Source of the DNA: Streptacidiphilus sp. PB12-B1b
Lineage (GTDB): Bacteria; Actinomycetota; Actinomycetes; Streptomycetales; Streptomycetaceae
Length of the DNA: 64,000 nt
Direction of reading: 5' to 3'
Assembly (NCBI RefSeq): GCF_014084125.1
Contig: NZ_CP048405.1
Span: 5,394,001 to 5,458,000, forward strand
Below, piece by piece: positions 21,464 to 61,021 of the stretch (position 1 is the stretch's first letter; the number at the start of each line of letters is the position of its first letter). The notes under the pieces were generated by a model. That model was given only the letters and a program-made list of their open reading frames with translations, did no database searches and was not told the origin of the DNA. The translations under genes and the position numbers were made by a program.

Positions 21464-21689
21464 GACGACCCCCCGTTTGCCGCTCTCCGGCAGCTCTGAC
21501 GATTGCCCGGCAAGCCGCCGACCAGCCACCATGGTTGCTCATCACCGTGCGCGAAGGAAATCTGGGCCCAGCGCAGGACCACGGCCACGTGCTGCGGCAG
21601 CTCAACCGAGCACCAGACGGCCAGTCCAGCAACGATGAGGAACCTCGCCATTGTCCCTGGACCCGGCTCACGGACTCGCTGCGGTTCCG

Positions 21690-22256: not shown

Positions 22257-25200
22257 TCACCTCACCGTGTCAGGCTTTGTGAATGCGGCATGAAGCAGAC
22301 GATTGAGCTTCTGGTCGAGACTGCGGGTGAGCGATGGATAGGCGTGCTTTCCCGGGTGCCTGTGCTCGATCACCCTGCGAAAGTCCCGGCCGAAGACCGG
22401 AGCAGCAGCCTGGAACACATCTGCTTCTCTCTCGCCCAGCGTCTGAAGCACGGGAACATCGATGAGCCGGGTCTTCTCGAATATCCCGGCCCGCTCATGG
22501 GCGGGTGACCGCCATCCGGACATTGCGATGAAGAATTTTACGTCACCCAGCCCCACATCATGCCTCAGAGCCTGGCAGTGGAGAGCCGCAGAGGCGATCG
22601 CAGCACCTTCGCCGAATCCGGCGACACCGACGAACGGTCCATGATCCTCTGCAATCGACCCGAGGTACGGAAGGACCGAGTGCAAGGGCCCCTGGGAATC
22701 AGCGATCTCCGCACCGACGGGAACACCGTGGTGTTCGTTCCACAGATCCGAAAAACCCGCTCTCCACTCCCGATAGACACCCGCGACGTCGTAGAGCCCC
22801 TCCTCGGCCAAGGAGTCCAGGCCGTGGATTTCGAGCTGCTCCGCACCGGCAAGTGCCGGCATCGCGTAGGGCGCATCGGGGATGACAAACTCAAGATCTT
22901 CGCGCCTGGTCCAACCAGCCCTTTTCAGCATGGCCCGTGAAAGGCGACCGTCGGTCCCCCGGTCCGCCAGGAACAGCACCCTGTGTCGTCGCGGCACAAA
23001 GATGCTCATCGAGCCGAAGTCGTCGCGCTTGACACGTCGCTCAACGGGAGACGCGGGATCCCGTCGGTGAAGCAGCGACACGGTCGGGGACATCACACTC
23101 CAAAGCCCCTCCCCTTCATCCGCCGATCCGCCCATCAACGCGGAGTACGCCCGCCACTCCGCTTCCCTCTCTTTTTGAAAGCGGTCGAACGGGCAGAGCT
23201 CGGCGGTTCGCGTAGCGACATTTTTCTTCGCCCGCTCGATGAAGTCCCACAACTCCACGAGCAACCGCTCGGAGGACGACCTCTCCGAATTTTCGACAGC
23301 AATTCTGCCGAACAACGCCTCCAGCTCGGCGGGGTTGTCCCGAAAATGTAGATACGCTTCGGCGAAGGCCTGCAGGAAGAAAACGTAACTTGAGCAGAGC
23401 AGGGATTTTGCCTTTTTCGGGATCTGTGCGCCGTCATTGTAGGTGAAAAGATTGGGGTCCCCGTCGACCCAGAACCCTTCGACGCGGCTGCCCTCGCCGA
23501 AAATATTCGAAACGACGCTCCGGTCGGTGTGCGATCCCAGGCATTTGACCAGCACATCGGCACTCACCTCCGTTCCGCTCTCGGTGAGGACCGAACGGGC
23601 CGAAACAGAGGAAATTTCGCTCTCTATGACGGTGACCTTCCCGAGCGCCTGCGCCAGGAAATAGACGTCCGAGGCCGCCGGAACCGTCGACTGGTCCAGC
23701 ACGAAACTTCCGTCTACTTCCTGGGAGAGCGAGGGGAGGGACTCTATGTCTATACCGCAAAGGTCATAGAACGGACGCATGATGTCGACGACATCGTTGA
23801 GCGGCGTCGCTCCCTCGGTTGAGTTGATCACCCAGTTGCAGAGGGTGGACACGACCAGGTTTCGGCGCCGACAAATGATCGTCACGTGTCGCGCACTGTT
23901 CTCCAGGGCGGTTCGCATGTTCTCCAAGGCGAAGGCACCGTGTCCGACGATCACTACCGATGCGTCCTTGAACTTTTCCGGCGGCGTGTCATCGGCAACC
24001 CCCAGCCCGACATGCCCCGCAAAGAGGTGCTCGTCACGAAATCGATGCTGCACGGGCCGGTGGAGCCCGCCCGTCAGTGCCGCGACACCCGAGACCCGGA
24101 CCGACTTGGCAACGCCTCCCTGAAGGTATACGGCCTCGTATTCCCGCTCCCCGACCTTCCTGACGGAAACCACTTCACAGTTGAAGCGGATCGGCTCCTT
24201 CAGATCGGACGACACGGCGTGCGACTGCTGCAGGACCTCGTCCCTGCCCGGGAACACAGCTCGCCAACGATGGTCGCCATGCACTACGGGCGACGCACTG
24301 TCGAAACTGTATGCCGGGGAATCAATCTGCACTCGGGAATCCGCGTTGGCGAGTGAGCTCCACACGCCGCCGACGCGGTCCCGCTTCTCCAGGACCAGTG
24401 CTGGAACACTGAGCTTCTCAAGTCGTCGAGCGAAGCCGATACCGCCCAGGCCCGCCCCTATGACCAGGACCGGCAGACGCGGAGACGCGGGCAACTGCGA
24501 AGCAGCGGGCATCTGCGACACCGGCTGCTGCCGGCTGGAGGCGCCCTCGACCGATCGATTCCGCACCTGCTCGAGGACATCCGGTAGCGGTAACGGCGAA
24601 CTGCTCGCCCGCCGGGTGGTGAAGCGTGAAACGAAACGGTTGCCCGGCGACAGCGTGTCCCAGTCCACGGAGGAAACACAGACTGCTCCCCGCTCGGGCC
24701 CGGCGAGCAACCTGTTCAGGGCCGTGGTTCCCAGATCGTGGTCGATCGCCCCGAACCCCGAGGTCCTCGCCCGTTCGACCGCGTTGCGACCCACCGCAAT
24801 GCCGGCATCGGACCACGCGCCCCACTGGATCGAGAGCACGGGCTCACCCCGCAGCGACCACGAGTCGGCCCACGCGTCCAACGTCGCGTTCGCCGCGGCA
24901 GAGCTCGCCTGACCGGGGGCCCCGAAGATCGAAGCGGCCGAGGAGAACACCACCAGAAAGTCCGGCGGAGCGAAGACCTCCCGAAGATTCGTCGCGCCGC
25001 CGACCTTGACGCCATAGGCCTGCTTCAGCTCCGGCTCCGACTGACGTGCCTCACCGTCGGCCGGGACACCCTCAGCATGAACCACCCCGGCCACCGTCGG
25101 CATACCGGCCTGCGCCATGGCGTCCTTGGTCCGACGAACACTCCGCAGATCACTCACATCACACGTCAGACACTCGACCCGAGCAGATCGACGCAACTCC

Positions 25201-25895
25201 GCGACCTTGGACGGCACATCGGATCCCGCACGCGTCGACCGGGACAGCAGCACCACGTGCCGCGCTCCCCGATCCACCAGGAACTCCGCCGCTACCAGAC
25301 CCGGAGCACCCAATCCGCCGCTCACTACATACGTCGCATCCGGAAGAGCGGTGAAGTCCTCGTCGCCGAGGACCTGTCGTCGCAGTCTCGGCACCTTGAG
25401 TACGCCGGTTGCGGTGAACCGGTAGTCCTCCTTCAGACGGTCGCTCCGACTCAGAGTCAACGCTCGTGAAAGCTGCTCCCTCGAGGCCTCGATGCAGTGA
25501 ACCGCCCGGTCGGACCGCTCCGACCGGGCAGTCCGGCCGAGCCCCCACAGCCCCGCGTCGTCGACCGCACCCGGCACCGGCAGGAAGACGACCCTGCTCG
25601 GGGACGAGAGTGCTCCCTCCGGACAGGCCTGCAGAACTCGAAGCCCCAACAACACATCAGCCTCTCGCCCGTCGCTCAGAACCGCGAGGCATCCCCAGGC
25701 ACGCTCAGCGAGCACATCGCCGAGCGAGTCCGAGGCGCGGACGACGCGGCTGACCCACCCGTCCGGCAGATCGACACCGACCTCCGAACCGGCCAGCAGG
25801 AGATGCGGACCCGGCAACGAAACCCCTGAGGACCCCTCCGCCTCAACCCATACCGTCGAGTAGAAACAGTCAGAATAAGACGCCCCACTGATCAT
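22257..25895 (-). CDS. KR-flavin monooxygenase-FSH1-type hydrolase fusion protein
   Basis: A 1212-residue protein and the last gene of the PKS operon. Residues 1-440 are a type I PKS ketoreductase: structural half with GLWGLGRTARSE, NADPH loop VVSGGLGAPGLVAAEF, then FSSAASIFGAPGQ. The expected QANYAAAN reads QASSAAAN, so catalytic Tyr332 is Ser. Residues 475-960 are a class B flavin monooxygenase: FAD loop IGAGLGGIGFARRLEKL (Gly480), EKRDRVGGVWS, a second Rossmann motif VIVGHGAFALENMRTALE and CRRRN. Residues 965-1212 resemble FSH1-type serine hydrolases, but the nucleophile elbow reads GFGEGAA, with Gly1095 where Ser is expected; HPGKHAYP keeps the His. The monooxygenase may oxygenate the polyketide (Baeyer-Villiger or similar) while the flanking domains bind it. 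The ATG at 25895 has AGGGAGTG upstream; ATG 25916 is an alternative. GC is visibly lower than in neighbours. Confidence 0.8.
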   Translation of the reverse strand: MISGASYSDCFYSTVWVEAEGSSGVSLPGPHLLLAGSEVGVDLPDGWVSRVVRASDSLGDVLAERAWGCLAVLSDGREADVLLGLRVLQACPEGALSSPSRVVFLPVPGAVDDAGLWGLGRTARSERSDRAVHCIEASREQLSRALTLSRSDRLKEDYRFTATGVLKVPRLRRQVLGDEDFTALPDATYVVSGGLGAPGLVAAEFLVDRGARHVVLLSRSTRAGSDVPSKVAELRRSARVECLTCDVSDLRSVRRTKDAMAQAGMPTVAGVVHAEGVPADGEARQSEPELKQAYGVKVGGATNLREVFAPPDFLVVFSSAASIFGAPGQASSAAANATLDAWADSWSLRGEPVLSIQWGAWSDAGIAVGRNAVERARTSGFGAIDHDLGTTALNRLLAGPERGAVCVSSVDWDTLSPGNRFVSRFTTRRASSSPLPLPDVLEQVRNRSVEGASSRQQPVSQMPAASQLPASPRLPVLVIGAGLGGIGFARRLEKLSVPALVLEKRDRVGGVWSSLANADSRVQIDSPAYSFDSASPVVHGDHRWRAVFPGRDEVLQQSHAVSSDLKEPIRFNCEVVSVRKVGEREYEAVYLQGGVAKSVRVSGVAALTGGLHRPVQHRFRDEHLFAGHVGLGVADDTPPEKFKDASVVIVGHGAFALENMRTALENSARHVTIICRRRNLVVSTLCNWVINSTEGATPLNDVVDIMRPFYDLCGIDIESLPSLSQEVDGSFVLDQSTVPAASDVYFLAQALGKVTVIESEISSVSARSVLTESGTEVSADVLVKCLGSHTDRSVVSNIFGEGSRVEGFWVDGDPNLFTYNDGAQIPKKAKSLLCSSYVFFLQAFAEAYLHFRDNPAELEALFGRIAVENSERSSSERLLVELWDFIERAKKNVATRTAELCPFDRFQKEREAEWRAYSALMGGSADEGEGLWSVMSPTVSLLHRRDPASPVERRVKRDDFGSMSIFVPRRHRVLFLADRGTDGRLSRAMLKRAGWTRREDLEFVIPDAPYAMPALAGAEQLEIHGLDSLAEEGLYDVAGVYREWRAGFSDLWNEHHGVPVGAEIADSQGPLHSVLPYLGSIAEDHGPFVGVAGFGEGAAIASAALHCQALRHDVGLGDVKFFIAMSGWRSPAHERAGIFEKTRLIDVPVLQTLGEREADVFQAAAPVFGRDFRRVIEHRHPGKHAYPSLTRSLDQKLNRLLHAAFTKPDTVR

Positions 25896-25963: not shown

Positions 25964-26827
25964 TCAGCCGCCGGAAGCCTCGCTCTTCCCGAGATCCCGG
26001 AATTTCTTGGTCGCAATGTTCAGGCAGAGGGACGGCGACAACCTGAAGAGCCACCAGAACAGCTTCCAAAAGGCGGGGACCACGATGATTCCCTTGTTCC
26101 GGGCGACCGCGTCGAGCGACTTCTTGACGAATTCCTCCGGTGAGATCGGTTTCTGCTCCTCCCACATGTCCCGTGTCATCTCACTGGTCACACCCTCGAC
26201 GCTGCGGCCGTACATGCCCCCCTCGATCAGCGGGGTCCGGATGACCCCCGGGCACAGCACGCTCACGCGTACTCCGAGTTGGGCCGCCTCGATGCGCAGA
26301 TTGTGCGAGAGCCCGACCACGGCGTGCTTGGTGGTGACATACGAGGTCGTCCCCGCGCTCGGGACCAGGCCTGCCAGAGAGGCGGTGTTCACGATGTGGC
26401 CGAAACCCTGGTCGATCATGAGGTTGTAGACGGACTGAACGCCGTTGACGCAACCGATGACGTTGACGTCGACCATGCGCCGCCAGTCCTCGATGCGATA
26501 GTGCCGGGCGCCCGCACCCATGCCGTGGCTGATGCCGGCGTTGTTGAACAGGTAGTCCAGACGTCCGGTCCGCGCGACGGTGTCCTTGACGAGCTGTTCG
26601 AACTTCGTGTAGTCGGTGACGTCCAGCCAGGCCGCGGTCGCCTTCCCGCCGGCCGCCCGAAGAGCGGCGGCCGCCTCTTCGGCCTGCTCTATCTGCAGGT
26701 CGGCCAGTACGACCTCACAACCTCGGGCGACGAGTTCCTCGGCCAGCGCACGACCGATTCCGGACGCCGCGCCCGTGATGATCGCGGTGGCGTCCCGATA
26801 GATCCTGATGGCACTCGGTGTCGACAT
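25964..26827 (-). CDS. Short-chain dehydrogenase/reductase
   Basis: A 287-residue classical SDR. Cofactor loop ITGAASGIGRALAEEL (residues 18-33), NNAG at 95-98, and catalytic S150, Y163 and K167 in TSYVTTKHAVVG are all in place. The C-terminus has a hydrophobic stretch (FWKLFWWLFRL) that may contact membrane or a lipophilic substrate. It lies in the PKS operon 33 bases after the AT-like gene with a strong AGGAGGGAC ribosome site, so a post-PKS oxidation or reduction of the polyketide is the likely role. The direction of the reaction is not predictable. Confidence 0.85.
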   Translation of the reverse strand: MSTPSAIRIYRDATAIITGAASGIGRALAEELVARGCEVVLADLQIEQAEEAAAALRAAGGKATAAWLDVTDYTKFEQLVKDTVARTGRLDYLFNNAGISHGMGAGARHYRIEDWRRMVDVNVIGCVNGVQSVYNLMIDQGFGHIVNTASLAGLVPSAGTTSYVTTKHAVVGLSHNLRIEAAQLGVRVSVLCPGVIRTPLIEGGMYGRSVEGVTSEMTRDMWEEQKPISPEEFVKKSLDAVARNKGIIVVPAFWKLFWWLFRLSPSLCLNIATKKFRDLGKSEASGG

Positions 26828-26860: not shown

Positions 26861-27847
26861 TCAGCCACGTAGCGAGGCTGTCTGCGCCTGGAACTCGCGG
26901 AGTGAGTCCAGGTCCTGTCCGAAACGATTGACGGTGTGCACCTGCGTGGAGCCGCTGCCCGACGGCAGGATGTACTTCACGAACGTGGCGAGTGTCGCGC
27001 TCGGCCCGAGGTCGACGAAGGTCGCGTCGCCGACGGCGCTCAGCTTCTCGATGGTCTGCGCGAAATCCACCGGACTCCTCATGGCGTCCCAGATGCCGTC
27101 GGCCGTCACGGCGACGACCCGGTCCGTCGACGCGGACGAGACGATCGGGATTCGCGGCGGGGCGAAGCTCGCGGCGCCGAGGATGCCGCGCACCTGTTCC
27201 TCGACAGGGTCGATGAGTTCGGTATGCACGCCGTAGTTGACCGGGAGCCGCTGGCACACGACGCCCTCGCGGGCCAGGGAGTGCTCGAGCCGCGCCACCG
27301 CCTCGACCCGACCGCTGACCACGAAGTTGCCGCCGAAATTGCGCCCCGTCACCCAGCAGTCGGAGAACAACCCGGCATGGCTGCGCAGGAGTTCCGCGGA
27401 ACCGAGGACGGCCAGCATCCCCGACAGCGGGGTCCGCTCCGCCAGCGCCCGCGCGAACTCCACGGCGAAGGAGATCCCGAACTCCAGCGGGACCACCTCC
27501 GCGACCACGGCCGCGGTGATCTCCCCCAGGCTGTATCCCACCAGGACGTCGGGCCGGTAGCCCATTTCCTGTACCACCCGGGTGAGGCTGTACTCCACAC
27601 ACAGCAGCGCCGCGTTGGAGTCCGCCAGCGAGTCGAACGGATCGCTCTTGGTGCGGTCCGGGTCGAAGATCGTATCCAGCACCGATTTGCCGAGAACGGG
27701 GAAGGCGACGTCGTCGCAGTGCTCCAGCCACAGCCGGTAACGCGGGTGCCGCTCGTAGAGTTCGCGGGTCATGTGGAAGTACTGGGAGCCCTGGCCCGAG
27801 TACATGAACACGGTCGGTCTCGTCATAGCCTCTGCTTTCGTCACCAT
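26861..27847 (-). CDS. Second AT-like protein of the trans-AT system (acyltransferase or proofreading acyl hydrolase)
   Basis: A 328-residue FabD-fold protein. The nucleophile motif is GYSLGE (S107) rather than the GHSLGE of the other AT here, and the early motif is YSGQGSQYFHM, as in PksD/PedC-like members. The downstream His lies in NYGVHTEL. In trans-AT clusters one AT loads malonyl units while a second clade acts as an acyl hydrolase that clears stalled chains; this protein fits the second better, by inference. ATG 27847 overlaps the previous stop by seven bases; ATG 27826, with AGAGG before it, is an alternative start. Confidence 0.75.
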   Translation of the reverse strand: MVTKAEAMTRPTVFMYSGQGSQYFHMTRELYERHPRYRLWLEHCDDVAFPVLGKSVLDTIFDPDRTKSDPFDSLADSNAALLCVEYSLTRVVQEMGYRPDVLVGYSLGEITAAVVAEVVPLEFGISFAVEFARALAERTPLSGMLAVLGSAELLRSHAGLFSDCWVTGRNFGGNFVVSGRVEAVARLEHSLAREGVVCQRLPVNYGVHTELIDPVEEQVRGILGAASFAPPRIPIVSSASTDRVVAVTADGIWDAMRSPVDFAQTIEKLSAVGDATFVDLGPSATLATFVKYILPSGSGSTQVHTVNRFGQDLDSLREFQAQTASLRG

Positions 27848-29088
27848 TTTTCGAGGCAGATCGCCGAGCTGATCCCGCCGAAGCCCATGCTCAGGCTGAC
27901 CGCCGTACGGAACGCGTAGTCCTCCGCCTTCTCACGCACCCAGGGGAACGTCCCGTCCAGCGGGTCGACCAGGTTGCGGGTGGGGTGCAGCTTCTGCTCC
28001 CTCATCTGCAGGAGCGTGGCCACGATCTCCACTGCCCCCGCCGCGGCGAGCCCGTGGCCGGTGATCGACTTGGTCGCGTTGATCCGGGCGTGGGTGAGCC
28101 CGCAGCGCGCGAGCGCCTGCAGTTCGACCGCGTCCCCGGTGGGCGATCCGGTGCCGTGCGGGTTGACGTAGTCGACGGCGGACGCGGACAGGCCGGCCTC
28201 CCGCAGCGCGGCCTCGACGACGGCCACCTCCCCCTCCAGTGAGGGATGGGGGTTGCGGGTACCGTCCATCGCCGTGCCACCGCCGCGGAAGCGCGCATAC
28301 GGCGTCGGATGCCTGCGCCCGTCCGCCCGCTCGACGACCACCGCGGCGCATGCCTCGCCGAAGATGAAACCGTCATGGTTCCGGTCGAAGGGACGACAGG
28401 CCGCGGCCGGGTCGTCGGCCCAGCGGTGCGAGCCCATGGCGCCCATGGCCTGGAACGCCAGACATTCCCAGTACGACAGGTCCATGAGCGCGCCCAGGGC
28501 GACGCAGACGTCGACCTGGCCGGACTGCACCGCCCGCACGGCTTGGAGCACCGCAAGCAGGCCGCTGGCCGAGGCCCCGCCGAGCGTGTGGGCGAACCCC
28601 CGGATCGGGAACTGCTCGGTGCAGAACCCGCACAGGTCCGAATCCATGAAGCCCATGCCGTACGTCGGACGCACGAACTCGGGGCCGTCTGCGTAGCGGG
28701 CGTGCAGCAGCGTCAACTCGCGCTGCTGGACGTTGGATCCACCGATCACCAGGCCGATCCGGGACGGATCGGCATCATCCAGCCCGGCCTCGTGCCATGC
28801 CTCGTCCAATGTGGCCAGGGCCGCTCTGGCCGAGAGCGACGCGGTGCGCACGGTGCGTGCGGCGATGCTCCCGGGCACAGCCGGCTCGCCCATCTCGGCG
28901 CCCAGGAAGACCGTGGTTCCGCCGTCGGGGCGGGCCGGTGGGCGTCGGCCCGGACGCTGCAGGAACCCGAAGGCATGGCGACCGTCGAGGAGCGCTGCGA
29001 TGAAGTCGTCTTTGCCCTGTCCTACCGCGGTGGTGACACCCAGGCCCGTGACGACGACATCGCGGGCGTCAGAGTGCGGACTTGCCAT
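27841..29088 (-). CDS. KS-like malonyl-ACP decarboxylase of the beta-branching (HMGS) cassette
   Basis: A 415-residue ketosynthase homologue. The active-site Cys is replaced by Ser (HTLGGASASGLLAV, S173), while both His motifs (NPHGTGS and SITGHGLAAAG) remain. This Cys-to-Ser change is the hallmark of the PksF/CurC-type enzymes that decarboxylate malonyl on the donor ACP to acetyl-ACP for HMG synthase. The neighbouring donor ACP, ECH1, ECH2 and HMGS confirm the role. The ATG at 29088 is used because homology begins right after it; it lies 20 bases inside the ACP gene. A longer form from ATG 29124 is possible. Confidence 0.88.
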   Translation of the reverse strand: MASPHSDARDVVVTGLGVTTAVGQGKDDFIAALLDGRHAFGFLQRPGRRPPARPDGGTTVFLGAEMGEPAVPGSIAARTVRTASLSARAALATLDEAWHEAGLDDADPSRIGLVIGGSNVQQRELTLLHARYADGPEFVRPTYGMGFMDSDLCGFCTEQFPIRGFAHTLGGASASGLLAVLQAVRAVQSGQVDVCVALGALMDLSYWECLAFQAMGAMGSHRWADDPAAACRPFDRNHDGFIFGEACAAVVVERADGRRHPTPYARFRGGGTAMDGTRNPHPSLEGEVAVVEAALREAGLSASAVDYVNPHGTGSPTGDAVELQALARCGLTHARINATKSITGHGLAAAGAVEIVATLLQMREQKLHPTRNLVDPLDGTFPWVREKAEDYAFRTAVSLSMGFGGISSAICLEKW

Positions 29089-29314
29089 GGATGAGATCCG
29101 CCAGTTCGCCGATGTTCTTCGCATCCGCCAGCTCGACCAGGGGTATGCGTACGGACAGCGACTCCAGGGTCATCATGATGATCTCCGCCCGGTCGATGGA
29201 GTTGGCTCCCAGGCCGCGCAGCGAATCAGAGGGGTCAAAACGGTGGTCGTCGAGTTCGGGTATCACCTCGCGGATGTGCTCCACGATCAGATCGAAGACG
29301 TGTTGGTCCGGCAT
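29069..29314 (-). CDS. Free-standing donor acyl carrier protein of the HMGS cassette
   Basis: An 81-residue ACP. The phosphopantetheine site is S39 in LRGLGANSIDRAEII; the GxNSxDR form is typical of the donor ACPs of beta-branching cassettes (AcpK type). It carries malonyl, then acetyl, for transfer by HMG synthase. A strong ribosome site AGGAGGCTGACCGC precedes the ATG at 29314, and the gene sits between ECH2 and the KS-like decarboxylase. Confidence 0.9.
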   Translation of the reverse strand: MPDQHVFDLIVEHIREVIPELDDHRFDPSDSLRGLGANSIDRAEIIMMTLESLSVRIPLVELADAKNIGELADLIHGKSAL

Positions 29315-29318
29315 GCGG

Positions 29319-30071
29319 TCAGCCTCCTGTGTAGTGGGACGTGATGAGGGCCCGGACCTCGGGCTGGTGGAAGGTCTTCTCGTGCATGGCCACCTCGCGC
29401 GCGATGTAGTGCGGGAGTTCGGCGCGGAGTTCGGCCACGAGATGACTCTTGAGCGTGACCAGGGAGATCCTGGGTTTCTCGGCGAGGGTCTCGGCCAGTT
29501 CGACGGCGTGGCGCAGAACCTCGGCGCGCGGCAGGACCGGGAAGGGCACCCCTCGTTCCTTCAGCTCGTGGCCGTAGTAGGTCTTCGCCGAGAGCAACAT
29601 CTCCCCGGCCAGGCTGAAGCCGAGCTTCCTGGGCAGGACCAGGGTCGCCCCCATACCGGGAGTGAACCCGTACTTCATGAAGTTCGTGGTGTAGATGCTC
29701 TCCTGACTGAGGATCACGAAGTCGGCGAACATGCCCATGGCGAAGCCACCGCCGATGCCGTGGCCCTGCATCGCGGCGATGACGGGAACGGGGCAGTCCA
29801 ACGCCAGGCCGTAGATGTCGGCATCGGTGAAACTGATACGCCGCTCCTGGATCAGCAGCAGGCTTTCCTGGGTTCCGCCACTGGCGAAGTAGTTGCCGTA
29901 GCCGGTGAGAACGACCGCCTTGCACCGGTCGTTCGCCCCGACCCGCGCGAAGGCGTCCTGCAGGCCGGTGATGAGCTGATCGGAGAAGGTGTTCTTGTGG
30001 ACCTGGTCCTGCATCGTGATCTGGACGATGGAAGAGGTGATCTCCCGGTATTCCACGGGTGGGCTCTGCAT
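29319..30071 (-). CDS. Enoyl-CoA hydratase-fold decarboxylase, ECH2 of the HMGS cassette
   Basis: A 250-residue crotonase-fold enzyme. It has the oxyanion segments GNYFASGG and MQGHGIGGGFAMGMFADFVI, and FMKYGFTPGMGATLVLPRKLG. It is the PksI/CurF-ECH2 type, which decarboxylates the 3-methylglutaconyl intermediate on the PKS carrier to give the methyl (or exo-methylene) branch. The ATG at 30071 is two bases after the ECH1 stop, with GGAGAATAGG as ribosome site spanning the end of ECH1. The position next to ECH1 and HMGS supports the call. Confidence 0.88.
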   Translation of the reverse strand: MQSPPVEYREITSSIVQITMQDQVHKNTFSDQLITGLQDAFARVGANDRCKAVVLTGYGNYFASGGTQESLLLIQERRISFTDADIYGLALDCPVPVIAAMQGHGIGGGFAMGMFADFVILSQESIYTTNFMKYGFTPGMGATLVLPRKLGFSLAGEMLLSAKTYYGHELKERGVPFPVLPRAEVLRHAVELAETLAEKPRISLVTLKSHLVAELRAELPHYIAREVAMHEKTFHQPEVRALITSHYTGG

Positions 30072-30073
30072 TC

Positions 30074-30859
30074 CTATTCTCCTTCCCAGGGGAACTGCCC
30101 GGTGCCCACGTAGCGCTCGATCTTGCGCAGGTTCTCCTCGTCGGAGAACACCTCCCGGTTGGCTGCCAGGGCCTTGTCCCGGGAGGGGAGCAGAATGTCG
30201 TCGAGGTCGCGCAGGTATCTCTTGTAGCGGGTCACTCCCGTCTTGGGCAGATAACGCAGCCGTAGGATGTGTCGGCGCAGCAGGTTCTCGCTGTTGTCCG
30301 CACTGGCGTCGACGAGTTGCCAGTTCACGGCCTGCTCGGCGGTGAACGGCTGGGTCGTCAGTGTGATGAAGTTGGACTTGGCCGGCCCGACCTTCCTGAT
30401 CAGGAAGGGCAGGACACAGGCCGGCATCAGCCCGAAGAGCAGCTCGGACAGGCTGAACATGACCGTGTCCGCGCACACCACGATGTCGCACGCGGCGACG
30501 AACCCCACTCCCCCGGCGTTCACCTTGCCGCGCACGTGCGCCACGGAGACGAACGATCCGAAAGCGAGCGAGAGCCACAGATCGTACAGGGCCGCCGCAG
30601 GCGATCCCTCGGCCCCGCCGTCCCCGTCCCTCGCGGCGATCTCCCCGAAGTCGGCGCCCCAGCAGAACACCTCGGGCAGGCCTTCCAGGACGAGGATCTT
30701 GGCGTGCTCCTCGGAGAAGCGCACCACGTCGGCGCACTCCTCGACCAGGCGGGAGTTGATGGTGTTGCCCGCCTCCGGCCGGTGCAGTTGGAGGAAGCAG
30801 ATCTCGTTCTCGAAGCGAACCTTGATGGTCTCGTATCCCGCCGGGTTCAGGACACCCAC
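30074..30859 (-). CDS. Enoyl-CoA hydratase-fold dehydratase, ECH1 of the HMGS cassette
   Basis: A 261-residue crotonase-fold enzyme of the PksH type, which dehydrates the HMG-carrier intermediate. Visible landmarks are LHRPEAGNTINSRLVEEC, VFCWGADFGEI, VRGKVNAGGVGFVAACDI (oxyanion loop) and LSELLFGLMPACVLPFL. Translation probably starts at GTG 30859, which lies inside the end of the HMGS gene (13-base overlap), so expression is coupled. Known chemistry: ECH1 dehydrates and ECH2 decarboxylates. Confidence 0.88.
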   Translation of the reverse strand: MGVLNPAGYETIKVRFENEICFLQLHRPEAGNTINSRLVEECADVVRFSEEHAKILVLEGLPEVFCWGADFGEIAARDGDGGAEGSPAAALYDLWLSLAFGSFVSVAHVRGKVNAGGVGFVAACDIVVCADTVMFSLSELLFGLMPACVLPFLIRKVGPAKSNFITLTTQPFTAEQAVNWQLVDASADNSENLLRRHILRLRYLPKTGVTRYKRYLRDLDDILLPSRDKALAANREVFSDEENLRKIERYVGTGQFPWEGE

Positions 30860-32106
30860 TGGTACTCCCGGTGGAACTCGTCGATCCGCTTCAGGAACAG
30901 GAGTTCCCGGCCGAGCGCGGTCCGGGCCTGCGGAACGATACCGGTGTTCAGCAGCGCGTTCCGGGTGCCGAATTTCACGGCGTGATTGGCCTGCAGCAGC
31001 GAGTCGTACTCCGGCATCGTCAACTCGTACCGGCTGCTGAGGTGCTTCTCGATGCCGAGACCGCGCAGGCGGTCCTGGCTCTCCTGGCGGGAAACGCCGC
31101 TGAAGAACTCGGAGCAGCAGCCGGAGCCGTACGAGAAGACGCCTATGCGCTGGGGGCTGGAGAGGTCCGCGTTGTCGATGGTGCTGGCCAGCGACAGCAT
31201 CGTGGTCGCACCCATGACGTTCCCGACGCGCTGGCAGTACGTCAGGCCCGGGTGCATGCGCCGCTGGAAGTCCTCCTCGATGACCGCCGGACGCGCCTTG
31301 GCGACCTTGCGCATCAGATTGCGGTGCGCGCCCTTGATCATTCCGCCGAAGGGCGTGTGGAACGCGAGGTAACCGAAGGTCGAGACGAAGTCCACCTCAC
31401 CGACCCGCCGTTGGTACTCGCGGAAGGAGTTCTCGCAGCAGTCGAGGTAGGACAGCAGGGACAGGTCCGCGTTGCCCGCTTCGCTGTCGGGCAGGGGACG
31501 GCAGGTGTCCATCACCTCGTAGCCGTGGTAGCCGCTCGCACCGACATCGATCTGGAAGACGTGCGGGGTGTCGCTGACGATCATCGCCACAGCGCCGGCA
31601 CCGCCGCTCGGCTCGGCGAAGGACCAGTCCTCGGAGAGCGCGTCGCCACCGTCCGCCACCATGAACCGCGTGATGTCGGTGGCGATGACCAGTGCCTTCG
31701 CGCCCGGTGATGTCCCCGACAGGATGAAGTTCGCCGCTGTCTGCAGCGCCGCGACACCCGAGTAGCACGCGTTCTTGATCTCGAAGAGCCGGCAGTTCCG
31801 GTTCAGCCCGAGCAGGTCGTGGAAGTACGTGCTCATCGACTTGCCGAAGTCGAACGCCGACTCGGTCGCGGTGATGACCAGCTCGATGGAGTCCCGCTCC
31901 TCGGGCGACAGGGCGTCGATCAGGGGTTTGGCCGCGTTGACACCGAACGTCACCGGATCCTCATAGGGCAGCGCGACGGTCTTCTCCTTCATGAGGAGGT
32001 TGGCGAACCTCGCGGTGTCGAGCCCACGATGGGTCGCCAGCTTCTCCACGTCGAGATAGCAGGTGCCGGCGAAGATGTTGAGTGCTTCGATTCCAACGGT
32101 CGTCAT
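30847..32106 (-). CDS. HMG-CoA synthase-like beta-branching enzyme (HMGS)
   Basis: A 419-residue HMG synthase homologue that condenses acetyl from the donor ACP with the beta-keto group of a carrier-bound polyketide. The catalytic triad is complete: E82 in TATESAFD, C114 in KNACYSGVAAL and H250 in YLAFHTPFGG. GSGCCSEFF near residue 340 is another conserved segment. The ATG at 32106 has GGGGAAGAA upstream; earlier in-frame starts belong to non-homologous sequence. It leads the five-gene cassette, spaced 40 bases from the trans-AT gene. Confidence 0.93.
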   Translation of the reverse strand: MTTVGIEALNIFAGTCYLDVEKLATHRGLDTARFANLLMKEKTVALPYEDPVTFGVNAAKPLIDALSPEERDSIELVITATESAFDFGKSMSTYFHDLLGLNRNCRLFEIKNACYSGVAALQTAANFILSGTSPGAKALVIATDITRFMVADGGDALSEDWSFAEPSGGAGAVAMIVSDTPHVFQIDVGASGYHGYEVMDTCRPLPDSEAGNADLSLLSYLDCCENSFREYQRRVGEVDFVSTFGYLAFHTPFGGMIKGAHRNLMRKVAKARPAVIEEDFQRRMHPGLTYCQRVGNVMGATTMLSLASTIDNADLSSPQRIGVFSYGSGCCSEFFSGVSRQESQDRLRGLGIEKHLSSRYELTMPEYDSLLQANHAVKFGTRNALLNTGIVPQARTALGRELLFLKRIDEFHREYQWVS

Positions 32107-32146
32107 CAGTTCTTCCCCTGTGGCTTGCGGTTCGGTTCGGTCCGGT

Positions 32147-33238
32147 TCACCGTGCAGCGGGGACCGGCTCCAGTTCCTGGAGATCGAAATATCCTCGATA
32201 ACCGTGCATGTAGACGGCTGCGCGGTGCCCAAAGAGAACGGTCGCCGCGGTGGCGGTCTCAAGGTTCCCGTAGTCGCCGGTGGTGGACCGGAACCGAGCG
32301 CCGATCGCATACCGCTCGTTCCACCCGCGGACCATTTCTCCGGCACTCTCGGTCGACTTCTGCACGGCCCGGACCGGAGTGTCCTTCACCTTCGGGAGTT
32401 CGCGGAGGATCTTTTTCAGCAATTTGGTCAGAACCGTGCCGTGGCCGATCTCCTCGAATTCCATTCCGGAATATCCGAGGAGGTGCTCCACCGTGTCGGA
32501 CCAGCGCACGGCATGGACCATCTGCTTCGTCAGACTCTCTCTGACGAGGTGGTCCTCGTAGACCCTCGCGGTCACATTGGAGATCACCGGTATGCGCGGC
32601 TTCGAGAAGGATATCCCGGCCAGGAACTCGCCGAACTCCACGCGGGCCGACTCCATGTATCGGGAGTGAAAGGCCCCGCTCGTCCGCAACGGCATGAACA
32701 GGTGCTTCCCGGTCTGGAACAGCGGCATCGCGGCCTTGATGTCCTCGGCCCGGCCAGAAATCACGATCTGCGACGGCGTGTTGAAGTTCGCCAGATCGAC
32801 GGAGTCGAGCCCGTTCTCTGCGAGAACGGTCCGGACCTCCTTCTCCGAGGCGTTCAGCACGGCAGCCATCCCGCCGCCCGAAGCCCGGCCCATCAGCTCT
32901 CCTCGCTTGCGCACCAGCCGCAGGCCGGTGTCGAAGTCGAAGACCTCGGCCGCCAGCAACGCGTTGTACTCACCAAGGCTGTGACCTGCTAAGAAGTCCG
33001 GAACCAGCCCGGTCTCGCGCAGCTTCCGGTAGTAGGACAGGGCGTTGACGACATACATCGCGGGCTGCGTGTACTGCGTCTGGTCGAGCAGGCCCTCCGG
33101 GTCCTCCAGGCAGAGGTCCTTGATGGAGTAGCCGAGGATCGAGTCGGCCGAGCGGGTGAGATCCTCGAATTCGTCGAAAAGGGAAGCACCCATTCCCTTC
33201 TGCTGCGCCCCCTGCCCGGGGAAGACGTAAGTCCGCAT
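32147..33238 (-). CDS. Trans-acting malonyl-CoA:ACP acyltransferase
   Basis: A 363-residue AT. YVFPGQGAQQKGMG at the N-terminus and GHSLGE with S87 are the canonical malonyl-transferase motifs; SGAFHSRYM holds the catalytic His. After the FabD fold there is a C-terminal extension (from about residue 300, WNERYAIGARFRS to VLFGHRAAVYMHGYRG) found on many trans-AT loading enzymes. No PKS module in this window contains an AT domain, so this protein most likely supplies malonyl units to all of them. The ATG at 33238 with AAAGGA upstream is preferred over an earlier in-frame start. It is followed by the HMGS cassette. Confidence 0.92.
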   Translation of the reverse strand: MRTYVFPGQGAQQKGMGASLFDEFEDLTRSADSILGYSIKDLCLEDPEGLLDQTQYTQPAMYVVNALSYYRKLRETGLVPDFLAGHSLGEYNALLAAEVFDFDTGLRLVRKRGELMGRASGGGMAAVLNASEKEVRTVLAENGLDSVDLANFNTPSQIVISGRAEDIKAAMPLFQTGKHLFMPLRTSGAFHSRYMESARVEFGEFLAGISFSKPRIPVISNVTARVYEDHLVRESLTKQMVHAVRWSDTVEHLLGYSGMEFEEIGHGTVLTKLLKKILRELPKVKDTPVRAVQKSTESAGEMVRGWNERYAIGARFRSTTGDYGNLETATAATVLFGHRAAVYMHGYRGYFDLQELEPVPAAR

Positions 33239-33316
33239 GGGTAATCCTTTCTCGTCATCTTCCTGATCTGGTCGCAACGACCGCGAGCGCGTGTCGTCTG
33301 CATCATGTCAGAAAAT

Positions 33317-34693
33317 CTACGCCAATGCCTGCCGATAGTCCGAAAGAATCGAGGATGCCTCGCGCATCAGCGCCAACGCCATCCGGTCCGGATGCCGATT
33401 TCTCCAGCTCTCCCACGGAGCGCCCCGGGCCCATTGATTGAAAGCCCCCAGGGCGGGCCCGGTGTGAATCTGGACATTGGCCCGATCGTACTCGCTGTCC
33501 ACGAACGACAGTCGACTGCTGTAGCCGTAGTACCAGCGGAAGATCAGCGCCATCCGCCGCTTCGGGCTGCGCTCGGCCCGCTCGATCTCCGACTCCCGGC
33601 CCGTCTTCCGCAGATGCTCGCAGGTTTCCCGCCAGACCTCGTCGACACTCTTCTTGAAGTAGGCGTCCTGGATCTGCCGGCGAATCCCCTGCGGGATCTC
33701 CTCCCACGAGTCGTAGCTCTGGTACAGCGCATGGAGCCGGTTCGCCCGGGCGGGAAACAGCCCGCCCTTCTTCAGCACCTGGACCTGGGCGCCGATCTCG
33801 AACATGTCGCCCGCCGGACAGTAGTCGGTGTCCTGGACGTCGATGGTCTGCAGCCGGTCCTTCACCACGTCACTGATGCCGGCCTCGACCGTGCACTGGT
33901 TGATGGAACCGGTCATGACGTAGTCGGCTCCCAGGGCGAAGGCGGCGGCGACGGCGTGCGGCGTCCCGATCCCCCCGGCCAGCCCCAGCCGGATCTTCTC
34001 GCCGTAGCCGAACTCCCGCGTCGTGTGCAGACGCAGGCTCTGCATCGACGGCAGCAGCACGGTGGACACGCCCCGGTCGGTGTGGCCCCCCGAGTCCGCT
34101 TCGACGGTGAGGTCCTGCGCCACCGGCACGCCCCGGGCCAGTGCGGCCTGCTCGCGGGTGACCCGGCCCTCGGCCACCAGCTGCGCGACGATGTCCTGCG
34201 GCGCGGGCTGCATGAACTCGCGGGCCACCTCGGGCCGCGAGACCTTGGCGACGATCCGCGTGTCCCGGGCGACCCCGCCTCCCGGCCGGGCCCGCAGGCC
34301 CGACAGATGGAACTGGACCAGGGCCGGGGTGACCTTGATGAAGGCCGATGCCTCGATGACGCGCACACCGTGAGCGAGCAGCATGTCGACGTTGGCCGTC
34401 TCCCGTGCCGGGTACTGGAGGTCGCACAGGAGATTGACGCCGAAGGGCTGGTGCGGCGCCAGCTGCCGCCGGATATGGGCGATATCGTCCGTCACCCGCT
34501 CGGGGCTCAGGCCGGCGGCGCCCAGGAAGCCCATGAAGCCGGCCCGCCCCATGGCGACCACCAACTCCTTCGAGGCGATACCGCGGTACATCGACCCCGA
34601 CAGATAGGCGTAGTCGACGCCGAAGTCCCTGCGGAAGGACGCGCAGCCGAGCCGCCCTGCCCTGTCCTCCCCGCGTTCTCCTCCCGCGTTCAC
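33317..34693 (-). CDS. Trans-acting enoyl reductase, PfaD family
   Basis: A 458-residue FMN-dependent trans-ER. The N-terminal YAYLSGSMYRGIASKELVVA and AGFMGFLGAAGLSPE, the central LTVEADSGGHTDRG, and GLAGGIGTPHAVAAAFALGA (FMN-phosphate site) are diagnostic of PfaD/PksE-ER proteins. These reduce enoyl intermediates of modules that lack an ER. The GTG start at 34693 overlaps the stop of the terminal PKS gene by four bases. Here it is separate from the AT, whereas in several clusters the two are fused. Which module it serves cannot be told. Confidence 0.92.
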   Translation of the reverse strand: MNAGGERGEDRAGRLGCASFRRDFGVDYAYLSGSMYRGIASKELVVAMGRAGFMGFLGAAGLSPERVTDDIAHIRRQLAPHQPFGVNLLCDLQYPARETANVDMLLAHGVRVIEASAFIKVTPALVQFHLSGLRARPGGGVARDTRIVAKVSRPEVAREFMQPAPQDIVAQLVAEGRVTREQAALARGVPVAQDLTVEADSGGHTDRGVSTVLLPSMQSLRLHTTREFGYGEKIRLGLAGGIGTPHAVAAAFALGADYVMTGSINQCTVEAGISDVVKDRLQTIDVQDTDYCPAGDMFEIGAQVQVLKKGGLFPARANRLHALYQSYDSWEEIPQGIRRQIQDAYFKKSVDEVWRETCEHLRKTGRESEIERAERSPKRRMALIFRWYYGYSSRLSFVDSEYDRANVQIHTGPALGAFNQWARGAPWESWRNRHPDRMALALMREASSILSDYRQALA

Positions 34694-37600
34694 TTCCGGT
34701 CCTGCACCTTCTGGTGGCGGGTGACCCAGGCCTTCGCCACCGGGAGCCGCTTGTCCCGCCTGCCTGAGTAGAGCAGCTTGCAGAAGGACCGCACGGTGGT
34801 GAGCGCCGCTGGGTCGCCGAGCATCACGAAGTGGTTCGCCGAGTCCACGTCGACCTGGTGGAAGTTCGGCAGCTGCCGCTGCCACTCGGTCCAGTACACG
34901 GCGTGGTCCAGGACCGCGCCGTCCTCCTGCGTCGAGAACAGGGGCTCCAGTTCGCCGTAGAACAGGCCGCTCCGGTTGCGGAAGTAGAAGCAGGTGACCG
35001 ACTCCGGCCGGGGAAGCGGCGCGATGTCGTAGTCCAGTAGTCCGTAGGCTTCCTGGACCCGCAGATTGCGCAGCACCCGGGTGCGCAGCAGCCGGGTGTC
35101 CCCTTTCAGGCCGCGCTTTCGCGCCAGCGTGAGCATCTGGTCGAGGAGGTCGTCCTCGTCCTGGTCCCAGTCGACTTCGCGGCTGGGCACCAGCGTGGCG
35201 GCGAAATCCTTCGGAGCCGGCTTGGACGCGGCGAACAATAGGGCGTTGACCTGCTGCAACAACATGTCGGTGCGCGACATGGTGACATCCCCCACGCTGT
35301 CGTCGTAGGTGTCCACCATGACGATGCTCTCGACCGTCTCGCCCAGCTCCTGGAGCCGCCGCGTCACCTCGTAGGCCAGCAGGCCGCCGAACGAATAGCC
35401 GCCCAGGTCGTAGGGCCCCTCGGGCTGGACCGTGCGGATGATCTGCGCATAGTGCACCGCCAGAGCCGAGATCCCGTGCAACGGTTCGCTGTTGGTCATC
35501 CAGCCGCGGGCCTGGATTCCGTAGAACGGACGCTCGATGCTGTCGGTGATCGGGGCGTAGACCTCCACCCCGCCGAGCCCGCCGTGGAACCAGAAGACCG
35601 GTCGGCCCTCGCGTACGGCATTGAGGTGGACGACCTCCGGGATGCGCACCGGGGCGGCGGGCACCGGCCCGGCGCCGGCGGATGCGACAAGCTCGGACCC
35701 GAAGCGCCGCACCAGGTCCCGGGTCGACCGGCACTCGCTCAGCGCGGCGAGATCGGCCGTGGGGTCGATCTCGGCCTGCAGCACCTGCAGCAGCTGCGTG
35801 GCGTGGATCGAGCTGAAGCCGAAGTCCTCCAGCGGCGTCGCGGGGTCGAGTTCCTCCGTCCGCACCCCCAGCAACTCGGCGACGACGACCGTGATCCGGT
35901 CCGCTGCTCCGGCGACAGGAGCAGCAGCCGGAGCAGCAGCCGCCGGAGCAGCGATCGCGGTCGTGGCATCCCCTCCCGGGGGCAGGGGCACCCAGTACCG
36001 CTTCCGGTCGAAGGGGTAAGCCGGCAGCGACCGGAGCATCCGCGGGGTCCGGTCGCCGCGCGGCACCGACCCCCAGGGGACGTTCCCGCCCCGCGCCCAC
36101 AACAGTGCCAGCTTCTCAAGGTGGTTCTCGGCCAGCAGCTCGCGGACCAGCGCGTCCCCGGCCCGTCCGGTCAGCAGCAGGTCGAGATCCGAGTCGTCCC
36201 GCCCGGCGTTGCCGGTGAACAGCGGCACGGGGGCGGTCTCCTCGGAACCGTCGAGGTAGTGGGCGAGGCCCGCGACGAGTTCCTTGGGGTTCCCCGCCAC
36301 CAGCGCCAGCCGGGAGTCCATCGCCTCGCGCCCGCGCTGCAGCGTGTGGGCGAGGTCTGCCAGGGACAGATCCGCCTGCGCGAGCACGAACTCCGTCAGC
36401 CCGCTCGCTAACGCTTTCAGCCGGTCCTCGGTGCGGGCGGAGAGGACCACGATCTGCGGCGTGTTCTGCGGCATCCGTTCGGCGGCCTCGGCCACCGGCT
36501 CCCCCACGTACTCCTCCACCACCAGATGGGCGTTGGAACCGCCCGCTCCGAAGGAGTTGATGGTCGCCCGTAGCGGGTACTCCCGCTCCTGGCCGTCGAG
36601 GTTCACGACGGGCCGTCGCCACGGCTCCGCCTCCTGCGGCAGATAGAACGCGGTGCCTGCGAGCTCCACTCCCGGGTTGAGCCGCCCGCGCCCGACGAAC
36701 GGGACGAGTCGGCGGTGCCCGAGCTGCAGGACGACCTTGGTCAGCTGGGCTATGCCCGAGGCCGCCTCAAGGTTGCCCAGCGTGGACTTGACCGTGCCGA
36801 CGGCACAGAACTGCTCGTCCCGGGTGTGCTCGCCGAAGGAGTCGCGCAGCGCCGCGAACTCGATGGCGTCGCCCATCTGGGAACCGTTGGCCGACACCTC
36901 GGCGTAGCTGATCGTGCGCGGGTGGACGCCCGCTCGCTCCAGGTTCTCCTCGATCAGCCGCTCCTGCCGCTCCGGGCTGGGCACCATGGGGCCGCTGGTG
37001 CGGCCCTTGTGGTTGGTCGCGCTCGACCGGATCACGGCGAGGATCTCGTCCCCGTCGTCGACGGCCTTGGACAGCGGTTTCAGCAGCACCGCGCCGACGC
37101 CCTCCGCGGGGATGAAGCCGTCCCCGTCGAGGAGGGCCCTGCTGTCGGAGTCGCTGCCGGTCAGGCCGGTCAGGCTCAGCCCCAGGTACTTCTTGGGGTG
37201 CAGGGAGAGGTTGACGCCACCGGCGATCATCATGTCGCAGCCGCCCCGGCGCAGTTCCTCGCACGCCATGTGGACAGCGACCAGCGACGAGGAACAGGTG
37301 GTGTCGATCGCAAGGCTCGGCCCCTGCAGGTCGAAGAAGTGCGACACCCGGTTGGCGATGGCGCTGTAGCTCAGCACCGAGGTGATGGACTCGTGCACGA
37401 TGTCGGACGCCAGCAGCTGGTACTGCTGGTACATCGCGCCGACGTAGACGCCGACCCGGCTCCCGTGCACGTCGCGCAGCCGGTCCCGGGGGTAGCCGGA
37501 GCTCTCCAGCAGGGTCCAGACGCACTCCAGGAACAGGCGCGTCTGCGGATCCATGATCGCGGCCTCGCGCGGTGAGACGTTGAAGAACAGTGCGTCGAAA

Positions 37601-40600
37601 TCGGCTACCCCGTCGAGGAATCCGCCCCACTTGGTGGGGGTGCTTCCGGGCCGGTTCCGGTCGGGGTCGTAGTAGCGGCTGTGCTCCCAGCGGTCCCGGG
37701 GCACCTCCGTCACGCAGTCCGTTCCGGCGACCAGGTTCTCCCAGAACCCGTCCAGGTCCTTCGCGCCGGGATAGCGGCCGGCGAGTCCGATCACGGCGAT
37801 CGCACCCTCGCGGCTCGTGGGCCGCACCGGCCCGGCCGGTGTCGGTGCCCCGGCCGGCACCCCGGTCGGTGCCGCCGGCCGTGTGTCGGCGGCCCTGGCG
37901 GTGACCCGGTCTTCGGCCTCGGGTACGGCCGACCGTTCGGGCTCGCCGTGGATGCCGACGACTGCCCGTACCGCGTCCGGGTGGGCGCGGAGGAAGTAGC
38001 CGCTCAGCTCGTCGAGGTTCCGGTACTCGAAGAACAGCGTCTTCGACAGCGAGCCGAAATCAGCCTCCAGCCGGTTGGTGACCGAGAGCGCCAGCACCGA
38101 GTCGATGCCGAACCGCTCGAAGGGTGCCGCCGGGTCGATCCGGTGGCCGGGCACCTGGATCACCTCGCTCAACGTCCTCCGGAGGTGCGCGACCAAGGCG
38201 GCGGACGCCGCGTCGGCCTCGACTCCCTTCGCCGGCCTGGGCGCCTCCGGCGCCGCGGGCCCGCCCAGCACGGTGCGCCTGATCCGGTCGGCGTCGCCCG
38301 CCACGACCAGGACCTGGCTGAGCGGCGCCTCCAGCGCGGCGTACAGCGCCCCCATGCCCGCGGTGGTCGGCATGGGTGCCATGCCCAGCCGCTCGTTCAT
38401 CATCGCCTGGGTACCGGGGTCCATCCGCATCCCGCCCTCGGCCCACAGCGGCCAGTCGACCGAGACGGAGGCTCCGGAGCGCTCGCCGCGGGCGACCAGC
38501 TGCCGCCGGTGGTGGGTGTAGGCGTCCAGGAACGCGTTGGCCGCCGCATAGTCGCTCTGCCCGGCGTTGCCGAACACCCCTGCCGCGCCGGAGAACGACA
38601 CCATGAAGTCCAGCGGCAGGTCTTTGCCCGCCTCGTCGAGGTTCACCAGCCCGGCGACCTTGGGTGCGAGAACCGCGCGGCACTCCTCGGCGGTCTTGCC
38701 CCGCACGAGGCCGTCGCACAGCACCCCGGCCGCGTGGACGATGCCGTGCAGGGTGCCGTGCTCCCGCACGATGCCGTCCACCAGGGAGCGCACCGCGTCG
38801 GCCCGGGCGACGTCGACCTGTGCGTAGCGGACGTCGGCTCCCCGGCTGCGCAGCGCGTCGAGGACGGACTCCTGTTCGGGTCCGAGTGGCGAGCGGCCCG
38901 CCAGGACGAGCTTGACGTCGCGGACCCCGGCGGCCATGTCCTGTGCGACGAGTGTGCCGATGCCGCCCAGCCCGCCCGTGACGAGATAGACCCCGCCACT
39001 GCGCCAGGGCACTCGGACTTCCGCGGGCGTGTCGGCCTCGCGCCAGGCCAGGGCCTCGACGCGGTCGCCCCGGAACCGCAGGCAGGACTCGTGGGGGTAC
39101 CGGCGGCCGGCGACGAGCCGGGACATCAGCTGCTCGGCGGTCTCGGCAGGGTCGACGAGCAGGACCTGCGGCAGCAGCCCGGGCGCCTCCGCCTGCGCCG
39201 ACTTCAGCAGCCCGAGCAGGCCGCGGGTGGTGCCGAGCCCGGTCCGGTCGGGGACCACGAGCTGCACGCAGACACCGTGCCGCACGCCGTCGGCCAGCAG
39301 ACGCCGCAGGTGGTCGAGCGCCTGGACGGTGTACTCGGTGAACCGTTCCGCGATCCCGGGTGCGACGGAGGTCAGTTCCAGCAGCCGCGCCGCCGGGTCC
39401 TGCCGGGCGAGGATCTCGCCGAGGGCGGGCTGGTCGGGCAGCAGCACGACGGGTTCCGGCGGCCCGGTGTCCGGGCAGCCGGGGACGGCCTCCCGCCACA
39501 CCGGCAGGAAGCTGACGCAGGACACCGCGTCCTGCCCGGTCCCGCCGACCTCACCAGCCAGGACGCGGTAGGACATGCCGCGGATCCGGACGCACACCCG
39601 TCCCCGGTCGTCGCAGAGGTCGATGTCGAGTTTGAAGACCGCACCGTCCGCCCGGGAGCCCGCGCTGGAGCGGATCCAGGCCCACATCGCCTCCGGGCAG
39701 GTGCCGAGTACGTCGAGCTCGTCCAGGGCGAACGGCAGGGAGGGCTTCATTCCGGTCACATCGAGTGCGGCGGCCGTTCCGGACGCGAGACCGATACCGA
39801 GTGACGCCTGCAGGGTCGCGTCGAGCAGGCTCGGGTGCAGGACGAACGCGTCGCGCGCGGCGCGCACCGAGTCCGGCAGTACCAGCCGGGCCAGGACCTG
39901 GCCGCGGCCGACGTGCAACCGCTCCAGGCCGCGGTGCGAGGGGCCGTAGTCGAAGCCGATCGCCTCGTACGCCCGGTACAGCTGGGCCGCGGTCAGCTCC
40001 CCCTGGTCGCACGCGGTCCGGAGGGCCGACACGTCGAGCAGCTCCGGCTCCGCTGTCCGCCGCACCACCTGGCCCTGGCTGTGAACCACCGGGTCGGCGC
40101 CGGGCTCCGCGCCGGCCATGCCGGTGATCTCGTAGTGGGCCTCGTCGGGGCCCCCGGGCGCGAGGGATGTGACGAGGGTGACGGGCTCGGCGTCCACGAC
40201 CACCGGCCGCGCCCACACGACGTTGCGCAGGGCGATGCCGTCGCCGCCGCCACCGTGCTCGAACGCCCCCAGGGTCAGGGCGGCGGCGGCCCGTGCCATC
40301 TCCAGGCAGGCGACGCCGGGCAGTACTTTCCGGCCCTTGACCACGTGGTCGGTGAGGAAGTGCTCCTCACCGGTGAACCGGGTGCGGTAACGCCGAGCGC
40401 CGAAGTCCGAGACGTCCTCGTGCAGCAGCGGGTGCGGCTCGGCCGTGCCGGGGCGGGCCGGAGCGAGCGCCCGCTGTTCGGGCACCCAGTACCGATCGCG
40501 GGCGAACGGGTACGTCGGCAGCGGGACGCGGGTGGGGCGGTCCGCGGCGAACAGGGCGGCGTGGTCCAGGCCGTAGCCCTGGACGTGGAGCTCCGCGACG

Positions 40601-43600: not shown

Positions 43601-43898
43601 AGGGGGAGCCCTGCAGGAGTCCGCGAACGCGCAGCCGTCGCACGGATTCGTCCAGCCAGCGCCGCAGTCCGGATCCGGGGAGCAGGGCGGGAGCCGCAGC
43701 GGACAACTGCCCGGCGCCCTCCAGCTGAACCAGCAGCAGACGGCTCAGCAGGTCCTCGTCCAGGCCCGCGGCGGCACCGACCGACGCGCCCGCCGCCGGG
43801 CCCGTCGTTCCGTCCGGTTCCCGACACAGGTGGCGCAGGGGGACCCGGATGCCTCCGGGCATCATCGTGATGGCTTCGCGCCGAATGTCGTTCAGCAT
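34690..43898 (-). CDS. Trans-AT PKS, terminal protein: MT-ACP-KS-DH-KR-ACP-KS0-ACP-TE (frameshifted as written)
   Basis: The frame from ATG 43898 shifts at 41152-41157; adding one base gives 9210 bases, 3069 residues. Order: C-methyltransferase (LEIGAGTGGGSVTVLDRL); ACP (S468); KS (VDTACSSSLVA, C717); DH with HVVKGRKVLP and DATLQ, so intact; KR with SDYAAANAF; ACP (GIDSVLAL); KS0; ACP (GFSSIHA); type I thioesterase (GGYSFGGLLAYE, His in ANHFVMLG). There are no AT domains. The KS0 keeps TCSSS but reads SANGS for HGTGT and LGNLEA for GHLEA, so both catalytic His are lost and it should only pass on the chain. The first ACP has Leu, not Trp, at Ser+6, so it is not a beta-branch carrier. The MT-ACP completes a module begun by the previous protein. 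The thioesterase releases the product. Confidence 0.88.
41152..41157 (-). other. Frameshift site in a C6 run inside a KS domain
   Basis: On the coding strand the KS reads SLEHRSIPP and then leaves frame; the expected continuation SIHFERANAHIDMSDSPFYV is present in the neighbouring frame immediately after a run of six C (six G on the plus strand). Seven C would restore one 3069-residue protein. The break is either a homopolymer sequencing error or a real one-base deletion. Confidence 0.85.
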
Positions 43899-43899
43899 G

Positions 43900-52738: not shown

Positions 52739-52746
<8 letters not shown>
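43900..52746 (-). CDS. Trans-AT PKS: DH-KR-ACP-KS-ACP(beta)-KS-KR
   Basis: A 2948-residue protein without AT domains. It starts in the post-KS linker of a module whose KS is in the previous protein. Next come DH with H208 (HLVHGVRTLP) and D378 (SLMDAALQ); KR with Y798 (QADYAAANAF) and the B-type Asp in GVIKDD; ACP S951; KS C1223 (TMCSSSLT) with HGTGT and GHAES; a beta-branch ACP with S1785 and Trp1791 (LDSIVGVEWMKAIN); KS C2053 (TACSSSLVA); and KR with Y2865 (QCNYVAGS). The KS-ACP module has no reducing domains, leaving the beta-keto group that HMG synthase needs. The protein ends after the KR, so its methyltransferase and ACP are in the next protein. The ATG at 52746 overlaps the previous stop by eight bases, and one base separates its stop from the next ATG. 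Confidence 0.92.

Positions 52747-61017
<8,271 letters not shown>

Positions 61018-61021
<4 letters not shown>

Follow-up and report, generated by a model that had tools for sequence, protein, structure and literature searches.

A naturally ACP-less SdlR-type fusion protein in a trans-AT polyketide synthase cluster of Streptacidiphilus sp. PB12-B1b

At the end of a trans-AT polyketide synthase (PKS) operon in Streptacidiphilus sp. PB12-B1b, one open reading frame joins a PKS-type ketoreductase (KR), a flavin monooxygenase (FMO) and an FSH1-type alpha/beta-hydrolase. Which of these parts could act as an enzyme, and is the combination a new one? The locus was examined within a stretch of 64,000 nucleotides (positions 5,394,001 to 5,458,000 of contig NZ_CP048405.1; hereafter, the window; all coordinates refer to it). 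We consider it likely that the protein is a homologue of SdlR in a shuangdaolide-type trans-AT PKS cluster, with a working FMO epoxidase, inactive KR and FSH1 parts, and a lost ACP that was dispensable.

A three-domain protein closing a trans-AT PKS operon

The fusion gene runs on the minus strand from an ATG at 25895 to a stop codon at 22257-22259; this start is supported by the homologue from S. scabichelini (record L012), which opens with MIS and continues into a shared CFYST(A/V)WVE block. Pfam matches to the protein comprise KR (residues 187-363; 1.8e-45), NAD_binding_8 (478-533; 1.3e-10), with weak Pyr_redox matches spanning residues 476-681, and FSH1 (971-1193; 4.3e-14), and they place a FAD/NAD(P) region of two Rossmann folds from residue 476 onward. 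When the PDB was searched by sequence, the KR part matched PKS ketoreductases, with Lsd14 (7s6b; 2.9e-29) at the top, and the flavin part matched best a Baeyer-Villiger monooxygenase (6jdk; 1.4e-7); the FSH1 part, used alone as the query, gave no match in the same search. An AlphaFold prediction for the FMO and FSH1 part, made with four homologues, had a pLDDT of 32 and gave no model fit for use. Thus, by Pfam and PDB matches, KR, FMO and FSH1 follow one another in one chain, and the three folds that an earlier note on this DNA had read from motifs are confirmed. The features of the gene are as follows:

22257..25895, minus strand: SdlR-type KR-FMO-FSH1 fusion protein, 1212 aa (open reading frame, Pfam, homologues)
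24636..25565, minus strand: PKS-type KR didomain, residues 111-420 (Pfam, alignment to Lsd14/EryKR1 and homologues)
24567..24599, minus strand: KR-FMO junction without an ACP (alignments; PP-binding in homologues)
23076..24476, minus strand: FMO domain, residues 474-940 (Pfam, PDB search, motifs)
22317..22985, minus strand: FSH1-type alpha/beta-hydrolase domain, residues 971-1193 (Pfam, motif)

On the minus strand the gene closes an operon, and the genes lying upstream bear out the terminal place in a trans-AT PKS operon that the earlier note gave it:

25964..26827, minus strand: short-chain dehydrogenase (SDR), directly upstream of the fusion gene (Pfam; 92% aa identity and dN/dS 0.13 against Streptomyces sp. 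ISL-87)
26861..27847, minus strand: stand-alone acyltransferase (AT)
27841..29124, minus strand: ketosynthase (KS) of the beta-branching (HMGS) cassette (PRK07103 match)
29069..29314, minus strand: discrete ACP, 81 aa, with the motif GANSIDRAE (found by hand)
29319..30737, minus strand: ECH2, true start probably near 30074 (PRK07110)
30074..30859, minus strand: ECH1
30847..32346, minus strand: HMG-CoA synthase homologue of the cassette
32147..33277, minus strand: stand-alone AT
33317..34771, minus strand: NMO/FabD-insert (PfaD-like) protein
34690..64000, minus strand: trans-AT PKS genes, continuing past the window to coordinate ~97,700

A domain scan of the PKS genes recovered 16 KS domains, a tandem ACP pair in the open reading frame at 52739-61021 and a terminal TE in that at 34690-41115. 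PKS modules without AT domains, together with the stand-alone ATs and the beta-branching cassette, give the cluster its trans-AT character. The SDR encoded directly upstream is a candidate partner oxidase of the fusion protein. The 81-aa ACP gene between those for ECH2 and the KS lies below the usual open reading frame cut-offs and is conserved in Streptomyces sp. ISL-87; its product probably serves the HMGS cassette as donor ACP. The idea that the ACP of SdlR (see below) supplies a missing donor ACP to this cassette was rejected, given this discrete ACP both here and in ISL-87. Just past the downstream end of the cluster, an FG-GAP repeat protein with near-identical C-terminal repeats is encoded at 19646-21532 (minus strand).

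Over its whole length of about 80 kb, the cluster is collinear with its counterpart in Streptomyces sp. ISL-87, and nucleotide identity is 83-89% across the main blocks of the alignment. Two PKS frames whose ISL-87 orthologues are intact are interrupted here, in both cases by one base in a C-rich run:

41025-41115: PKS frame break 1 (near 41.0-41.1 kb)
~68145-68184: PKS frame break 2 (near 68.15 kb), outside the window

Runs of C are places where long-read assemblies often err, and the two breaks may be either assembly errors or real lesions. With two PKS frames broken, the strain may not make the product of the cluster.

A rare family and the loss of its ACP

Homologues were sought in several sets of genomes. 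A scan of a genome collection recovered three from Streptomyces, with identities over FMO and FSH1 of 84% (Streptomyces sp. ISL-87, record L010), 83% (S. marokkonensis, L011, 8264-12247) and 82% (S. scabichelini, L012), all with the same adjoining gene order as in the window. A tblastn search of plasmids added a protein of Vibrio nigripulchritudo (WP_281833113.1; 48% over FMO and FSH1), and a profile search of 395 genomes of the family added one more, in the genome G362 (record L030, 1-3759), which shares its genus label with most of those genomes and is taken as Streptomyces. The set compared here thus consists of four Streptomyces homologues and one from a Vibrio plasmid. The profile search found no other homologue in 296 genomes of the phylum, nor in a further 13 from the same genus. 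The family of SdlR-type fusions is rare and patchy, and the expectation of a small family adjoining PKS genes held wherever the neighbourhood was examined.

The Vibrio copy lies at 18246-22142 of record L009, on the conjugative plasmid pTUMSAT-V.nig3-1 of this marine gammaproteobacterium. Like the window gene it ends a PKS operon, but it encodes KR-ACP-FMO-FSH1 and belongs to a hybrid NRPS/PKS cluster of different content.

The five fused homologues share the order KR, then FMO-FSH1. This confirms the single chain of 1212 residues at 22257-25895 and rules out a sequencing fusion of separate genes. In the search for the same domain order across genomes suggested by the earlier note, the order itself was found in these five, but all five carry an additional ACP. 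This ACP, marked by a DSL or NSL motif, lies between KR and FMO in each of them (PP-binding was matched in the four records L009-L012 and the domain was seen directly in G362), the four Streptomyces proteins included, whereas no PP-binding domain was found by Pfam in the window protein. The gap in the latter keeps the reading frame; it takes up 68 columns of the alignment and, with a linker that is also shorter, amounts to about 70 lost residues. Judged from the alignment, it is not the product of a simple sequencing error. Because the cluster and the flanking domains are otherwise collinear, the absence of the ACP is best described as a lineage-specific loss. The architecture and the missing ACP are direct observations.

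The combination is not new. The earlier note knew of no such architecture among described trans-AT clusters; however, a figure legend in PMC7619045, which cites Liu et al. 2023 (pmid 37992317), already describes SdlR, of the shuangdaolide pathway of Streptomyces sp. B59, as KR-ACP-FMO-FSH1 with only the FMO active. According to the same source, SdlR epoxidises the 16,17 alkene, and the epoxide is then converted to a 2-hydroxycyclopentenone. The sdl locus of strain B59 is an 80 kb trans-AT PKS cluster, which in S. albus gives shuangdaolides and dumulmycin (PMC11022428); shuangdaolides are among the 20-membered macrolides (PMC11672594). SdlR and the window protein both have KR, FMO and FSH1 in one chain alongside a trans-AT PKS, with the FMO as the sole part expected to be active; both clusters are from Streptomycetaceae and of about 80 kb. 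They differ in the ACP that SdlR has between KR and FMO, which is absent from the window protein. By these comparisons we regard the protein as an SdlR homologue with one domain lost rather than a complete SdlR, the link being drawn from architecture, cluster size, family and lineage. There is also a likeness to MmpE of the mupirocin pathway, described as KS0-ACP-oxidoreductase with a class A FMO (PMC7619045): there too a flavin epoxidase of a trans-AT pathway is fused to PKS-type domains and acts on a remote alkene. Membership of that type was rejected on the different FMO class and partner domains, MmpE having neither KR nor FSH1.

Catalytic residues and constraint on the domains

In alignments to Lsd14, EryKR1 and the homologues, the position of the catalytic Tyr of the KR is occupied in the window protein by Ser332 (nt 24900-24902), and the NADPH loop reads GGLGAPG in place of TGGxGxLG; the protein thus has neither of the two marks of an active PKS ketoreductase. 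The Tyr is retained in Lsd14, in EryKR1 and in the homologues from ISL-87, S. scabichelini and Vibrio, and the assembly-line KRs in which the domain scan recovered the motif all keep it. It is replaced by Cys in S. marokkonensis and by His in G362, apparently independent losses, so that among six family members the Tyr has been replaced in three ways. In the FSH1 part, the nucleophile motif reads GFGEG (residues 1093-1097, nt 22605-22619), with Gly in place of Ser, and not the GxSxG of an active serine hydrolase; every streptomycete copy reads GFGEG, and the Vibrio copy reads GFCEG. On the residues seen, both parts appear to be pseudo-enzymes for which the usual chemistry would be impossible.

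The FMO differs. The two Rossmann GxGxxG/A motifs expected of a class B flavin monooxygenase or Baeyer-Villiger monooxygenase (BVMO) are present, as GAGLGG for FAD (residues 480-485) and GHGAFA for NADPH (651-656), and both are intact in all six family sequences. The class B fingerprint FxGxxxHxxx(W/Y/F) was matched in none of the six (FAGHVGL here, FGGHLGL in Vibrio).

Constraint on the parts was compared among the five streptomycete sequences. The window copy has 54 private amino-acid changes in KR and FSH1 and 15 in the FMO, versus 65 and 60 in the other four pooled (Fisher p=4e-4). The S. scabichelini copy is skewed the opposite way (11:18, p=0.007), and the other three lineages show no departure. 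In the FMO, the 15 private changes of the window copy compare with 12-18 in the other lineages. In pairwise comparisons with the window copy, the FMO has a dN/dS of 0.14-0.20 and the KR one of 0.34-0.39. These counts, like the residue losses, are direct observations, and by them the FMO is kept and the KR and FSH1 are relaxed in the window lineage.

Function of the fusion protein

The proposals on cofactor use, epoxidation, substrate and product made here draw on the motifs, on the SdlR literature and on the likeness of the clusters. Judging from its motifs, the FMO domain would bind FAD and NADPH; by analogy with SdlR, it would most likely epoxidise a remote alkene of a nearly complete polyketide, and the product of the cluster is probably a shuangdaolide-type macrolide. 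The earlier suggestion that the FAD domain is the oxygenating part gains support from the intact motifs and from SdlR, whose FMO is described as the sole active part (PMC7619045). With the fused ACP gone, the substrate would have to reach the FMO either bound to an assembly-line carrier or as a free chain.

Other readings were weighed against this one. In one, the flavin part is a Baeyer-Villiger monooxygenase: it would place an oxygen within the chain, and the hydrolase would cut the resulting ester. The nearest solved structures by sequence are indeed BVMOs (6jdk, as above); but there is no type I BVMO fingerprint, the nucleophile of the hydrolase is gone, and the characterised relative by architecture, SdlR, is reported as an epoxidase (PMC7619045), so that we hold this to be very improbable. 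The cluster could instead be decaying, in which case the missing ACP, the damaged KR and the PKS breaks would all be signs of pseudogenisation and the fusion protein would be idle. The two one-base frame breaks relative to ISL-87, the ACP loss and the faster change of KR and FSH1 would fit such a course; however, the FMO retains its reading frame and motifs, with a private change count in line with that of the other lineages, all cluster genes tested have a dN/dS of 0.13-0.49 against ISL-87, and both breaks fall in the error-prone C runs. We judge decay to be improbable.

A better candidate, though still an unlikely one, is the proposal of the earlier note that the KR-like and FSH1-like parts hold the polyketide: inactive themselves, they would bind it and position it for the FMO. 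Both parts persist from Streptomyces to Vibrio (35-48% identity) despite the lost catalytic residues, which speaks for a binding role. In the window lineage, however, they have changed more quickly than the FMO, and PMC7619045 says of them no more than that they are inactive. The residue losses and the faster drift are explained no less well by a dispensable KR and FSH1. Somewhat more plausible, but tentative all the same, is a further step from the preferred reading of a working epoxidase with inactive partners: the natural deletion may show that SdlR-type epoxidases can do without the fused ACP, the FMO using substrate on other carriers of the assembly line, and that the dead KR and hydrolase are docking or scaffold parts only, now being lost.

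The fusion protein is a known enzyme in reduced form and not a new kind of enzyme; what sets it apart is that here a multidomain epoxidase described only recently occurs naturally without its ACP and with a dead KR. The copy on a Vibrio plasmid extends the family outside the actinomycetes. Within the family, the replacements of the KR Tyr and the loss of the ACP lend comparative support to the FMO as the part that matters, and the Streptacidiphilus protein provides a natural, ready-made ACP-less construct for asking whether epoxidation uses the fused carrier.
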